Assembly (NCBI RefSeq): GCF_000702505.1
Contig: NZ_JNIM01000001.1
Coordinates: forward strand, 4,340,001 to 4,404,000
Reading direction: 5' to 3'
DNA from: Thermogemmatispora carboxidivorans
GTDB taxonomy: Bacteria > Chloroflexota > Ktedonobacteria > Ktedonobacterales > Ktedonobacteraceae
Length of the DNA: 64,000 bases
Shown here: positions 8,112 through 13,103 of the stretch, in pieces
How positions within the stretch are numbered: the first letter of the stretch is position 1
Layout: every line of letters starts with the position of its first letter
Program-made: the position numbers and the translations under genes
The notes under the pieces: generated by a model
Database searches by the model: none
Told to the model about the DNA's origin: nothing
What the model saw: only the letters and a program-made list of their open reading frames with translations

Positions 8112-8165
8112 GGAAGGGTAGCGGGGAGGAGCCAGCAAGGAGGCTGCTCACCTCGTTACCCTTCC
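8112..8165. terminator. Bidirectional terminator hairpin at the end of the rib operon
   Basis: GGAAGGGTA (8112-8120) pairs with TACCCTTCC (8157-8165), and pairing continues inward with two mismatches. The 3' arm overlaps the ribE stop codon. It lies between the convergent propeller gene and the rib operon. Confidence 0.55.
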
Positions 8166-8869
8166 TGGCGTTTTGCCCCCCCTGCTCCCTTGCCCTCCTT
8201 TGCCCTTGCTTCCTGTGAATGTGCCTGCGTCGGTGGGTCTCCGGCTGCCGGCTCGCTCTGTAGCGCGACAGGATAATGGCCCAGAAGCTGCACCAGGTAG
8301 CGCCCGACGATGTCGCTCTCCAGGTTGAGGAGGCTGCCCGGACGTAACCGACCCAGGTTGGTATGGGCCCGGGTATAGGGAATGAGGGCCACGGTGAAGC
8401 GATCGTCCTGACAGGCAACGACGGTGAGACTGACCCCGTTGAGGGCGACAAAGCCTTTGGGGATAATAAAGGGCCGCAGCGCAGCAGGCAGGGTGATGGC
8501 GCAGAGGAGCGAGTTGCCCTCTGGATGCACGCTCAGAACAGGGACCACAGCTTCGATATGCCCCTGAACGATGTGCCCTCCGAAACGGCCTCCTACTGGC
8601 AGCGAGCGCTCTAGATTGACGGCGCGTTCGTCTTGATCGCTCCCTTCCCCCATGAGAAGGGGGGCGAAGCGCGTGCGGCGCAGGGTCTCGGGCATGAGTT
8701 CAACACGCAGCCAGTCTTCGCCGCGAGCAACGACGGTGAGACAGGCCCCGTCAACGGCGATGCTGTCACCGAGTTTGACGTCGGACCAGGTGGCCGGGAT
8801 GGCGATTTCCAGGGTGGTGGCGCTGGTCGCCAGCACAGTGCCAACTTCTTCGACGATGCCGGTAAACAT
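8156..8869 (-). CDS. ribE: Riboflavin synthase, alpha chain
   Basis: This enzyme dismutates two molecules of 6,7-dimethyl-8-ribityllumazine to riboflavin plus the pyrimidinedione precursor. The protein has 237 residues and shows the classic duplicated lumazine-binding fold. The first barrel begins MFTGIVEEVGTV with the motif GDSIAVDGACLTVV; the second carries GGHIVQGHIEAV and KGFVALNGVSLTVV. It is about 25 residues longer than usual because of a basic, low-complexity C-terminal tail after HYPVALQ. It is the last gene of the riboflavin operon, starting 6 bases after the ribH stop, with its ribosome-binding site (AAAGGAG) inside the end of ribH. Regulation by the FMN riboswitch at 12683-12867 is inferred from gene order and spacing. 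Confidence 0.95.
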   Translation of the reverse strand: MFTGIVEEVGTVLATSATTLEIAIPATWSDVKLGDSIAVDGACLTVVARGEDWLRVELMPETLRRTRFAPLLMGEGSDQDERAVNLERSLPVGGRFGGHIVQGHIEAVVPVLSVHPEGNSLLCAITLPAALRPFIIPKGFVALNGVSLTVVACQDDRFTVALIPYTRAHTNLGRLRPGSLLNLESDIVGRYLVQLLGHYPVALQSEPAAGDPPTQAHSQEARAKEGKGAGGAKRQEG

Positions 8870-8875
8870 CTGGAC

Positions 8876-9403
8876 TTAGCTGCTCCTTTCCTTGGTGCCG
8901 ACGATGTCCGACCATTGGCGCCCCCCGGGGCGATGCTCACCCGCACGGCGGAGGTGCCGCAGGGTAGAGGCTAGCTCGATGGCAGCCAGGGCGCACTCGG
9001 CGGCGCGGGGAATGCGCGCCTGGGCCTGGAGACGATTGGCAGCACAGATGACGCCGAAGATCACTGGCAGACCAGTGTCGAGGGCGACGCGCTGGATACC
9101 CTGGGCAGCTGCGTCGCCGACAAGAACGTCATGGCGCGTCTCGCCTTTCATGACACAGCCCAGGCAGATGATGGCGTCGTAGCGCTGGCTGGCAGCCAGG
9201 GCCTGGGCCAGGAGAGGGAGCTCAAAGGAGCCGGGGGCCTGCCAGATGTCGATGTCTTCCTCGGCCACACCGTAGGCGATGAGGCTGCGCCGGGCCGTCT
9301 CCTGCATGGCTCCAGTGATCTGGGGATGGTACCGGGCGACGGCCAGGGCAATGCGTAGCCTGCCGCCGTCGGGACGCTCTTCAGCGCTGATGGCTTCAGA
9401 CAT
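8876..9403 (-). CDS. ribH: 6,7-dimethyl-8-ribityllumazine synthase
   Basis: A 175-residue enzyme that condenses the pyrimidine intermediate with 3,4-dihydroxy-2-butanone 4-phosphate, the step before riboflavin synthase. Family features are IALAVARYHPQIT at the N-terminus, APGSFELPLLAQAL, and GCVMKGETRHDVLVGDAA, where the His is the proposed proton-transfer residue. A Gly/Arg/Ser tail follows the last helix. The start at ATG 9403 is set by the strong GGAGGAG just upstream; it overlaps the ribBA stop by 8 bases, suggesting translational coupling. A longer frame extends upstream but lies inside ribBA. Proteins of this family assemble into pentamers or 60-subunit shells; which applies here cannot be told. 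Confidence 0.95.
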   Translation of the reverse strand: MSEAISAEERPDGGRLRIALAVARYHPQITGAMQETARRSLIAYGVAEEDIDIWQAPGSFELPLLAQALAASQRYDAIICLGCVMKGETRHDVLVGDAAAQGIQRVALDTGLPVIFGVICAANRLQAQARIPRAAECALAAIELASTLRHLRRAGEHRPGGRQWSDIVGTKERSS

Positions 9404-10718
9404 GGCTCTCCTCCTCTCTTCGCCAGCCATCGCGGCTCGCCTGGCTGATGGTCTCACGCGCGCCCGGGCCTGATCCCGTTGGGATCGTGAGGAGATGGCC
9501 CAGGCGACGGCGACGGGCTTCGAGATAGGCACGGTTCCTGTCGCTGGCCGCGATCTCCAGTGCTACACGCTCGACCTGGAGGCCGGCGCTCTGTAAGGCC
9601 CTTAGCTTGGCCGGATTGTTGGTGAGCAGGCGCAGGCGGCGCAGGCCCAGCTCGGCCAGGATGGCGACGGCCTCATCGTAGGAGCGCGCGTCGGCAGGAT
9701 AACCGAGACGCTCATTGGCTTCCACGGTATCAGAGCCGTTATCTTGCAGGCGGTAGGCATGCAATTTGCCAGCCAGGCCAATGCCGCGCCCTTCCTGCGG
9801 TAAATAGAGGAGCAAACCACGCCCTTCACGTCCGATGAGGGCCAGGGCCTGCCTGAGCTGGGCCTGGCAATCGCAGCGTTGCGAGCCAAAGACCTCGCCG
9901 GTGGTGCAGGCCGAATGAAGACGCACCAGGGGCGGCTCGTCGCCGTTGTCGAGTTCTCCCAGAATGAGGGCCAGGTAATCGCGGGCCTGGCGAGTGTCGC
10001 GATAGTGGCGGAGCTGAAAGTCGCCTTCTGGCAGCGGTAGGCGCGTCTCATTCACCAGGATAACAGGCCGCTCGCTCCGAAAGCGGGCGATGGCGTCCAC
10101 AGTGATGAGGCCCAGACCGTGACGCTGGGCAAAGCGCAGCAGAGATGCACCGCGCGCCGGCTCGCCTTCTTCATCGAGCACCTCGCAGATGACAGCTCCC
10201 GGCTCCAGAGCAGCCAAACGCATGAGGTCAACCGCTCCCTCGGTGTGGCCGCGCCGGCCCAGGGTGCCGGCTGGATGGGCGCGCAGCGGGAAGAGATGGC
10301 CAGGGCGCGCGAAGTCCTCCGGCTGTGCGGTTGGGTCGACAAGCAGACGAGCGGTTAGGGCGCGGTCGCGGGCGGAGACGCCAGTAGTAGTGCCACGGCG
10401 GGCGTCGACGGAGGCCGTAAAGGCGGTGTCCTGCAGGGGAGCGTTAGCGCGCTCGGCCAGGGGAATGGCCAGAGCATCAAGCCGCTCGCCGGCCAGGGCT
10501 ACACAGAGCAGGCCGCGCGCTTGCTGGAGCATAAAGTTGATGCGCTCAGCGGTGGCGAACTGGGCCGCCAGGCAGAGGTCGGCCTCGTGCTCGCGTGTCT
10601 CGTCGTCGCAGAGCAAGATCATCTGACCAGCCTGCAGCCGACGTAGGGCGGCAGGCACGGAGAGCCACAGGCCATCGGTCTCTAACAGGTGATTTGCTGG
10701 CATCACAAGATCTCTCAC
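9396..10718 (-). CDS. ribBA: Bifunctional DHBP synthase / GTP cyclohydrolase II
   Basis: A 440-residue two-domain enzyme supplying both riboflavin precursors. Residues 15-215 are the 3,4-dihydroxy-2-butanone 4-phosphate synthase domain (DDETREHEADL, RRGTTTGVSARDR, RPGHLFPLRAHPAGTLGRRG, then HTEGAVDLMRLA). Residues 220-405 are GTP cyclohydrolase II, with the zinc cysteines in CTTGEVFGSQRCDC and the catalytic block GRGIGLAGKLHAYRLQ plus LLTNNPAKLRAL. The first domain reads REHEADL where RENEGDL is usual, a mild deviation; all metal and catalytic positions I can identify remain. The frame opens with GTG at 10718, overlapping the ribD TGA (GTGA); an ATG at 10703 is an alternative. A Gly/Arg-rich C-terminal tail precedes the overlap with ribH. 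Confidence 0.95.
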   Translation of the reverse strand: MRDLVMPANHLLETDGLWLSVPAALRRLQAGQMILLCDDETREHEADLCLAAQFATAERINFMLQQARGLLCVALAGERLDALAIPLAERANAPLQDTAFTASVDARRGTTTGVSARDRALTARLLVDPTAQPEDFARPGHLFPLRAHPAGTLGRRGHTEGAVDLMRLAALEPGAVICEVLDEEGEPARGASLLRFAQRHGLGLITVDAIARFRSERPVILVNETRLPLPEGDFQLRHYRDTRQARDYLALILGELDNGDEPPLVRLHSACTTGEVFGSQRCDCQAQLRQALALIGREGRGLLLYLPQEGRGIGLAGKLHAYRLQDNGSDTVEANERLGYPADARSYDEAVAILAELGLRRLRLLTNNPAKLRALQSAGLQVERVALEIAASDRNRAYLEARRRRLGHLLTIPTGSGPGARETISQASRDGWRREEESHV

Positions 10719-11947
10719 TTTCTTGTCGGGTTCTGCGCTGCTTCCGTCGCAGGTGAGGTGGTGGAGGTGGCGGAAGCGGCAGAGGTATAGCAGACCTCGC
10801 CCTCGATCAGCAGGTCGTCGCCAAGCGCCTGCGTGTGCCGATCATCCAAGGTAGCCGCCAGGCTTAAGCGGGGCAGGCCCTGGCCGGCAAGAGGGACCGG
10901 GGCGCAGGCCCCACCGATCAGCCGGGACGCGACGATGACTGCGACATGGTCAATGCAGCGACAGTCGAAGGCACTGCCCGTGAGGGCGGCCCCGCCTTCG
11001 AGCAGGATATGCATCAGGCCCTCGGCGGCCAGACGCTGCAGAGCCTGCTGGAGATCGACGCGCCCCGTCGGCTCGCAGGGCACTTCGATGAGGCGCACCC
11101 CCGGACGGGTCAGGACGGCGCGTTGCCCGGCGGGTACCTGCTCGCCGATCAGCAGCCAGGTCTCTCCGGCTTCGGGCGTGTTGAGCAGCCGTAGCTGTGG
11201 CGGGAGTTGGCCGCTGCTGGTTATGACTAGTCGCCGCGGCGGCTGGTGACGTGGTCTACGCTCGCTGCTGGCGGCCAGGCGCACGGTGAGCAAGGGATCG
11301 TCGCGGCGCGCCGTGCCGGCTCCCACCAGGATGCCATCGACGCGGTCGCGCAGCTCGTGGCTCCAGGCCCGAGCCGGCGGTCCACTGATCCAGAAGGCGT
11401 CACCTGTTCGCGCCGCAATCTTGCCATCGAGGGTCATGGCCCACTTGACCGTGACATAGGGGCGCTTGCTGCGCACAAAGGTGGCAAAGGGACGCAGCAA
11501 CTCGCGCGCCTGCCGGGCCTGGGGATCAACCTCGTCCAGCAGCACAACCGCGATCCCAGCCTGCTGGAGCTGCGCCAGCCCACGCCCATCGACCCGCGGG
11601 TTGGGATCGTGAGCGGCCACAACGACGCGCCGGACCCCCGCGGCAATGAGGGCCTCAGTACAGGGCGGCGTGTGCAGCGCGATACAGCACGGCTCTAACG
11701 TCACATAGAGATCAGCCCCTCGGGCCTGGGAACCAGCTGCCCGTAGCGCCTCGACCTCGGCATGGGGTCCATACGGTGGCGCCGTCGCTCCCTGACCTAC
11801 GATTTGCCCGTCGCGCACAAGTACCGCCCCCACCGGCGGGCGCGGACTGGTACGCCCCTCGACGCTCCGCGCCAGGGCCAGCGCTCGCAGCATCAGAGGC
11901 CGCTCCTGTTCGCTCAATACAATGGCAGGCCCTTCAGGCATGGGCAT
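10715..11947 (-). CDS. ribD: Riboflavin deaminase/reductase
   Basis: A 410-residue bifunctional enzyme that deaminates and then reduces the GTP-derived pyrimidine. The N-terminal zinc deaminase domain (residues 8-150) has PVGAVLVRDGQIVGQGAT, the HAEVEAL motif and LEPCC...TPPC. The middle of that last motif reads IALHT where the family usually has HYGRT or HFGRT, so the zinc cysteines are kept but the conserved His is replaced. The C-terminal reductase (residues 165-370) has RPYVTVKWAMTLDGKIA, GILVGAGTARRDDPLLTVR and LLEGGAALTGSAF. The start at 11947 has GGAGGAA upstream and lies inside the sigma-factor gene (14-base overlap). The last 30 residues are an Ala/Ser/Thr tail. Confidence 0.94.
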   Translation of the reverse strand: MPMPEGPAIVLSEQERPLMLRALALARSVEGRTSPRPPVGAVLVRDGQIVGQGATAPPYGPHAEVEALRAAGSQARGADLYVTLEPCCIALHTPPCTEALIAAGVRRVVVAAHDPNPRVDGRGLAQLQQAGIAVVLLDEVDPQARQARELLRPFATFVRSKRPYVTVKWAMTLDGKIAARTGDAFWISGPPARAWSHELRDRVDGILVGAGTARRDDPLLTVRLAASSERRPRHQPPRRLVITSSGQLPPQLRLLNTPEAGETWLLIGEQVPAGQRAVLTRPGVRLIEVPCEPTGRVDLQQALQRLAAEGLMHILLEGGAALTGSAFDCRCIDHVAVIVASRLIGGACAPVPLAGQGLPRLSLAATLDDRHTQALGDDLLIEGEVCYTSAASATSTTSPATEAAQNPTRK

Positions 11948-12677
11948 GGCATTCCTCCAGAGCAGGCAGTGCCAGCGGCTCCTTTGCTCCGACGACGGGA
12001 GCCGGGACCGCTTCTTGTGCAAATACAGCCTTGGCATTCTCCTCCGACGCCCCCGGTCTCGGAGCCTCAGCAGGAGGCAGCAGCGTCTCAACCAGGCACT
12101 GCACGGGATCACCCTGAGCTACCGCCAGGAAGCTGCTCAAGAGGGCATGATGCTCCTCGGGCTTCACCCTGAAGCGGGCCCGAGCCTGGGCAGCACGCAG
12201 CCGCGCCCGGGCTCGATGCAGGAGCTGGCGGCAGGCGCTGGCGCTCCTGTTGAGCAGGCGGGCGATCTCGTCGTAAGGACAGGCAAAGGCCTCGTGGAGG
12301 AGAAAGACGGCCCGTTCAGCGGGACTGAGCCGCTCCTGCAGGAGCCAGAGAGCACGCGCCAGGGCCTCACGCTGCTCCAGGGTCTCGACAACCAGCGCTT
12401 CTGGCTCTGGCGTTGTCCTTGGCCCATCCACCACCGAGACCGGCGGCCAAAGGCCAAGGGGCTGCTCGCGCTGCACACGGGCCGATTTGAGGCGATCCAG
12501 GCAGAGGCGGGTCACAATCGTCAACAGATAGGCGCGTAGCGAGCCTATCTGTTGCGCCGCTGCCGTAGCATAGCGGATGTAGCTTTCCTGAATAATATCC
12601 TCGATCTCATCGCAGCTGCCCAACAGGCTACGCGCAGTGGCGAAGAGCAGAGGATAGTAGCGATCGAACTCTTCCAA
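11934..12677 (-). CDS. ECF sigma factor, ECF41/SigJ-like with truncated tail
   Basis: A 247-residue extracytoplasmic-function sigma factor. Region 2 lies at about residues 5-70 (YYPLLFATARSLLGSCDEIEDI, then IQESYIRYAT) and region 4 at about 110-160 (ERLSPAERAVFLLHEAFACP, then YDEIARLLNRSASACRQLLHR). The segment after region 4 (KPEEHHALLSSFLAVAQGD) matches the beginning of the SnoaL-like domain that regulates ECF41 sigma factors, but that domain then stops and is replaced by about 55 low-complexity residues; the usual DGGGK motif is absent. The start is a TTG with AGGAG 11 bases upstream. That AGGAG lies in the last stem strand of an FMN riboswitch. It is the first gene of the rib operon and overlaps ribD, so FMN should repress its synthesis along with riboflavin enzymes. 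No anti-sigma gene is adjacent. Confidence 0.9.
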   Translation of the reverse strand: MEEFDRYYPLLFATARSLLGSCDEIEDIIQESYIRYATAAAQQIGSLRAYLLTIVTRLCLDRLKSARVQREQPLGLWPPVSVVDGPRTTPEPEALVVETLEQREALARALWLLQERLSPAERAVFLLHEAFACPYDEIARLLNRSASACRQLLHRARARLRAAQARARFRVKPEEHHALLSSFLAVAQGDPVQCLVETLLPPAEAPRPGASEENAKAVFAQEAVPAPVVGAKEPLALPALEECHAHA

Positions 12678-12682
12678 TCGTC

Positions 12683-12867
12683 AGTCTTCTCCTATCGGAC
12701 TATACCGTCGGCCCTGGAACTTCCCCAGGTCATGCCCTCGCGCTGCCATGCGACAGCCAGCGCGGAGGCGTACGGGCTATACCGCCGATCGGGAATTGGG
12801 AGAGGCCATCGTCTCAGTCAGCTCCTGAGCACCGGCTGGCCCACATCCCTCACCCTGCCCCGAAGAC
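12683..12867 (-). ncRNA. FMN riboswitch (RFN element)
   Basis: The minus-strand RNA reads UCUUCGGGGCAGGGUG at its 5' end (about 12867), then a long P2 arm, AUUCCCGAUCGGCGGUAUAG (12790-12770 region), CCUGGGGAAGUUCCAGGG (12727 region), GCCGACGGUAUAGUCCGAU and AGGAGAAGA at its 3' end (12685). These match the conserved blocks of the RFN aptamer in order, and UCUUC at one end pairs with GAAGA at the other to form P1. The ribosome-binding AGGAG of the sigma gene touches P1, so control of translation initiation by sequestration is likely. No T-rich terminator is seen between aptamer and gene. Confidence 0.95.
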
Positions 12868-13057
12868 ATCGTTCTCTATTTTTTCTTTCTACTAGAGGAG
12901 ACGAGTCAGACCCCTCTTCTGTGACAGCTTTGCTGCATCTCTTCTGCTCAGCGCGGTTGCCAGCAGCCACACGCTTGATTTCTCAGAGGCGACAATGCTA
13001 CGATTGAACAGGGCTTCAAAAGAGGAGGGCGCGGCCTATCGCCTTCTCGCGTCTTGT

Positions 13058-13082
13058 CTCGCCTCGCCTCGCCTCGCCTCGC
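13058..13082. repeat. Five tandem CTCGC pentanucleotides
   Basis: Five perfect copies of CTCGC end 6 bases before the ribosome-binding site (AAGGAGG, 13089-13095) of the deaminase/aldolase gene. Slippage here would change promoter-to-RBS spacing but not the reading frame. Confidence 0.8.
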
Positions 13083-13103
13083 CGGCACAAGGAGGAACCG
13101 CCA

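Follow-up and report, generated by a model that had tools for sequence, protein, structure and literature searches.

Why should a sigma factor gene stand first behind an FMN riboswitch, ahead of the riboflavin genes, and what would that sigma factor transcribe? The question arises from a 64,000-nucleotide stretch of the Thermogemmatispora carboxidivorans genome (hereafter the window), in which the original prediction placed an ECF41-like sigma factor under an FMN riboswitch and proposed that, through it, a shortage of FMN would also raise a broader sigma regulon. On the minus strand, a promoter-like site (12926-12900) is followed by the aptamer (12871-12680), the sigma gene (12677-11934), and ribD, ribBA, ribH, and ribE, which extend down to 8156. 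The features of the locus, in the direction of transcription, are as follows.

12900..12926, minus strand: ECF41-type promoter TGTCACA-N16-CGTC, -35 at 12920-12926 and -10 at 12900-12903 (exact signature match)
12680..12871, minus strand: FMN riboswitch aptamer, or RFN element (RF00050, model positions 1-138, 64.7 bits, E 1.3e-14)
12862..12867, minus strand: P1 5' strand, GUCUUC (sequence and Rfam alignment)
12798..12849, minus strand: extra stem in aptamer loop L2 (alignment; further rib-operon aptamers of the class have covarying stems in this position)
12689..12693, minus strand: AGGAG, from which sigma is probably translated (ribosome-binding site; sequence, overlaps J6/1 and P1)
12684..12689, minus strand: P1 3' strand, GAAGAC (sequence and Rfam alignment)
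11934..12677, minus strand: truncated ECF41-type sigma of 247 aa that starts at TTG and lacks the SnoaL domain (Pfam, TIGR02957, SigJ 5xe7)
10715..11947, minus strand: ribD (TIGR00326, 295 bits)
9396..10718, minus strand: ribBA (Pfam PF00926 and PF00925)
8876..9403, minus strand: ribH, start approximate (TIGR00114, 115 bits)
8156..8869, minus strand: ribE, riboflavin synthase (TIGR00187, 180 bits)

Besides the rib genes, the other neighbour of the sigma locus is a divergent PF01168 gene. Short G+C-rich near-repeats (GGCGA units) lie between this gene and the rib promoter, at 13040-13084 of the window.

The RFN aptamer and its P1 closing strands were recovered by the covariance search: the RF00050 match on the minus strand of the window is significant and spans the full model, with GUCUUC and GAAGAC as the two P1 strands. 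A default Rfam scan of the window listed no aptamer, the score of 64.7 bits being 1.5 below the gathering cut-off of 66.2; the rib aptamers of the congeners score 64.5-68 bits against the same model, and the missing 1.5 bits coincide with an additional stem in loop L2. Core positions of the aptamer are invariant in the alignment. On the basis of its E-value, full-length match, and synteny, the element is identified as an FMN aptamer, and it is predicted to bind FMN. Ligand-free folding of the rib leader gave a stability that is not unusual (z -1.14). In the ligand-free fold the aptamer 5' strand pairs with early sigma codons, but with an energy so ordinary that we propose no anti-aptamer.

Among the FMN aptamers compared (window 12798-12849; L068, L069, L071, L072, L145, L157-L161, and L163), those of rib operons of the class have the L2 extra stem (GGGUGA-stem-AAUUCCC) with compensatory changes, and the transporter-linked aptamers are without it, with the exception of L068. 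Every congener also has a second FMN riboswitch (L033, G000:C1:2539473-2539578), which has a weak Rfam score in several of them and is followed by genes for a permease and a substrate-binding protein resembling RibXY riboflavin uptake.

The sigma gene starts at the TTG at 12675-12677, which lies 6 nt past P1, as originally described, and 2 nt past the end of the Rfam match; an in-frame TGA two codons upstream makes a longer sigma protein impossible. Located 11 nt before this TTG, the AGGAG lies against the P1 3' strand as had been noted, sharing its last G with that strand and having the remainder in the J6/1 strand. The AGGAG is invariant in the alignment of seven species, and the aptamer 3' end, AGGAG, TTG, and first sigma codons are invariant across six. 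Because an AGGAG-like stretch belongs to the aptamer's own consensus, it is the position of the motif that points to a role as ribosome-binding site. At the other end of the gene, the sigma stop and the ribD ATG overlap by 14 nt, and a GGAGG (11954-11958) is found inside the sigma 3' end, 6 nt ahead of the ribD start. The overlap suggests translational coupling of sigma and ribD as a second layer of control.

In all six Thermogemmatispora genomes (the window genome and five congeners), the riboswitch is followed first by the sigma gene, and the aptamer-sigma-rib order is kept in each, as far as the contig reaches in G039, where it ends within ribH. The named records with the same loci are those of Thermogemmatispora tikiterensis, T. 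aurantia, and two MAGs. Purifying selection acts on the sigma gene, which is intact and has a core dN/dS of 0.11-0.23 vs 0.10-0.19 for RibD, the latter range being drawn from the five congeners with the G000 rows left out. Regions 2 and 4 of the sigma are near-invariant in the six species and the C-terminal tail evolves fast.

The sigma-first arrangement recurs outside the genus but within the family, in the draft genome G031, which has TGTCACA-N16-CGTC, an FMN aptamer, a spacer of about 235 nt, a sigma-RibBA fusion, RibH, and RibE. All seven sigmas linked to rib genes group in a single clade (support 99/97). In the G031 fusion, known from this one draft genome, a truncated ECF41 sigma is in frame with RibBA in an open frame of 654 codons (L145 1-2544, minus strand; G031:C262). 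The sequence AGGAAGGA occurs upstream of an internal ATG at the sigma-RibBA junction, so a separate RibBA may also be made. Since the G031 sigma starts about 235 nt past the aptamer, a mechanism based on P1 and AGGAG would not apply there unchanged; a terminator scan around the G031 aptamer returned a single weak site, which is antisense to it, with 0.5 expected.

The ECF41-like identity of the sigma was borne out in its SigJ-type regions 2 and 4 (Pfam Sigma70_r2 and r4_2 in the open reading frame 11934-12677), whereas loss of the ECF41 sensor domain had been missed. Its best NCBIfam matches are SigJ/ECF41-type models, under their full-length cut-offs; TIGR02957 aligns over positions 1-198 of 281 only, and SigJ (5xe7) over residues 11-214 of 312 (E 1.5e-27). 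In the tree, the window sigma sits among the ECF41 sigmas of the class. The SnoaL-like C-terminal extension of about 100 aa is absent, the protein stopping ahead of the DGGGK and NPDKL motifs. All seven rib-linked sigmas terminate before motifs of this kind, which are kept by the other ECF41-like proteins of the class that were fetched, with the exceptions of L078 (a divergent paralog) and L141 (a contig end). The WLPEP linker motif between sigma2 and sigma4 has decayed to LWPPx or similar in the genus and to LLPDD in G031. There is no COE gene adjacent to the rib-linked sigma, and more than 30% of ECF41 genes are without this context (PMC3426412). Judged by these alignments, the window sigma is an ECF41-derived truncated sigma and not a complete ECF41. 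An AlphaFold model of the protein has a mean pLDDT of 55.9, and the conclusions rest on none of it.

The extent of the truncation bears on activity. Two ECF41 sigmas cut to residues 204 and 206 were about 20- and 120-fold more active, respectively, and complete removal of the extension (167 and 169 aa) left them inactive (Wecke et al., PMC3426412). Homology to ECF41 in the rib-linked sigma ends close to the published hyperactive cut point, and the truncated protein may thus be highly active.

Upstream of the aptamer, the window contains an exact match to the ECF41 promoter signature, TGTCACA-n16-CGTC (PMC3426412). The -35 and -10 elements are invariant in the six congeners and also present in G031, and the source genome has only two exact matches besides the rib site (spacers 15-17). 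The motif precedes the aptamer in 7/7 sigma-bearing loci vs 0/12 sigma-less rib operons of the class, a contrast that is not independent sampling, as the seven loci are one clade and represent about one evolutionary event. Conversely, a sigma70-like promoter scoring at least 9/12 was found in 11 of the 12 sigma-less operons vs none of the seven sigma-bearing loci, where a housekeeping-type promoter was sought at that threshold. No ECF41 site was present upstream of the transporter-linked aptamers of the genus. A survey of the phylum (400 genomes, one promoter pattern) found the promoter together with the aptamer 5' core in seven genomes, exactly the sigma carriers, and in none with the reversed control. 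Apart from that of its own operon, no ECF41-type promoter appears to be associated with the rib-linked sigma.

From these features we consider it likely that the sigma drives its own rib operon and that it is gated by the FMN riboswitch, which would hide its ribosome-binding site, instead of by a protein domain. Recognition of the promoter by this sigma would fit with a full-length ECF41 paralog, whose operon has the same promoter in all six congeners and which has the region-4 segment CRQLLHRA in common with the rib-linked sigma. Under the proposed circuit, an ECF41-type promoter would start an mRNA whose 5' portion is the FMN aptamer. At low FMN levels, the P1 helix would be open, ribosomes would access the AGGAG, and truncated sigma would be made; this would return RNA polymerase to its own promoter, so that sigma and ribD-BA-H-E increase together. 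With FMN bound, P1 and the binding core would lock the ribosome-binding site, sigma synthesis would halt, and transcription of the operon would decay. The full-length paralog could start the positive loop.

Ordinary ECF41 sigmas are restrained by their SnoaL domain; its loss here would put an RNA aptamer in the place of the protein sensor. We lean slightly towards a full exchange of sensors, in which control of an ECF sigma passed from a built-in protein domain, now gone, to an RNA aptamer, leaving the riboswitch as the sole restraint and turning a translational switch into transcriptional control with positive feedback.

The paralog mentioned above could instead be what mainly serves the rib promoter, with the riboswitch-linked sigma merely adding to it or having another target. 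Its operon carries an exact TGTCACA-N16-CGTC promoter in all six congeners (G000 copy, L151 2040-4488), and identical promoters invite crosstalk; moreover, a positive loop requires a starter. The paralog lies behind a gene identified from sequence as coding for a FAD-dependent oxidoreductase. This explanation is nonetheless unlikely, because ECF41-like sigmas occur in 38 of the 47 genomes of the class, yet, among the rib operons compared, those with the ECF41 promoter are exactly those that contain the truncated sigma gene. At a slightly lower probability still is the wider regulon of the original prediction. Sigma factors can act in trans, the paralog operon shares the promoter type, and a degenerate intergenic site, TGTCACC-N-CTCGTC (TGTCACCGTCAAGGGGCAYGCTCGTC), is conserved in four of the six genomes (L173, L178, L175, and L180). 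However, each further exact site checked in the genus is either inside a reading frame or ahead of the paralog operon, and a search with exact and degenerate patterns in these genomes gave mostly sites inside reading frames and a total no higher than the reversed control. The two ECF41 sigmas that have been studied experimentally also appear to control a single operon each (PMC3426412). In two of the four genomes that have it, TGTCACCGTCAAGGGGCAYGCTCGTC is located 206-215 nt before a response-regulator-like frame.

It is also conceivable that the sigma frame is an insertion in decay, or a leader gene that persists solely because ribD translation is coupled to it. The overlap of its stop with the ribD start, the GGAGG in its 3' end, and its fast-evolving C-terminal tail would fit such an origin; the selection on its core, the near-invariance of regions 2 and 4, its survival in a second genus, and the presence of a matching promoter make it very improbable. 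A self-driving operon with FMN as the brake seems a better reading than a wider regulon, and the claim that the FMN signal is passed to such a regulon is not upheld, as the one ECF41-type promoter associated with the sigma is its operon's own.

If the self-driving circuit is correct, a metabolite riboswitch governs a dedicated sigma that drives the same biosynthetic operon, and the locus would be an example of an RNA sensor taking over from a protein sensor domain. We know of no metabolite riboswitch that controls a dedicated sigma driving the same biosynthetic operon. No rib operon with an ECF sigma under riboswitch control emerged from a literature search; the search covered open-licence papers only and is weak evidence of absence. 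The circuit predicts that a pathway normally subject to simple feedback would respond in a sharp or bistable manner, and it would offer an FMN-gated pair of sigma and promoter.

The locus shares parts with three known systems. It has the aptamer core and downstream rib genes of other RF00050 riboswitches of riboflavin operons, and likely also their occlusion of the ribosome-binding site; unlike them, it has a sigma as the first gene, an extra stem in L2, and an ECF41-type instead of a housekeeping promoter. With the ECF41 sigmas SigJ of M. tuberculosis, Ecf41Bli, and Ecf41Rsp, the window sigma shares the sigma2-sigma4 sequence, the TGTCACA-N16-CGTC promoter, and probably control of its own operon, whereas it has lost the SnoaL extension and WLPEP, has a riboflavin target in place of a COE gene, and has an RNA switch in front. 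SigH of Corynebacterium glutamicum is likewise an ECF sigma that drives a rib operon (PMC4510997), but it acts from outside that operon and in a manner linked to RshA, and the C. glutamicum rib operon, unlike that of the window, appears not to be under an FMN riboswitch (PMC4510997).
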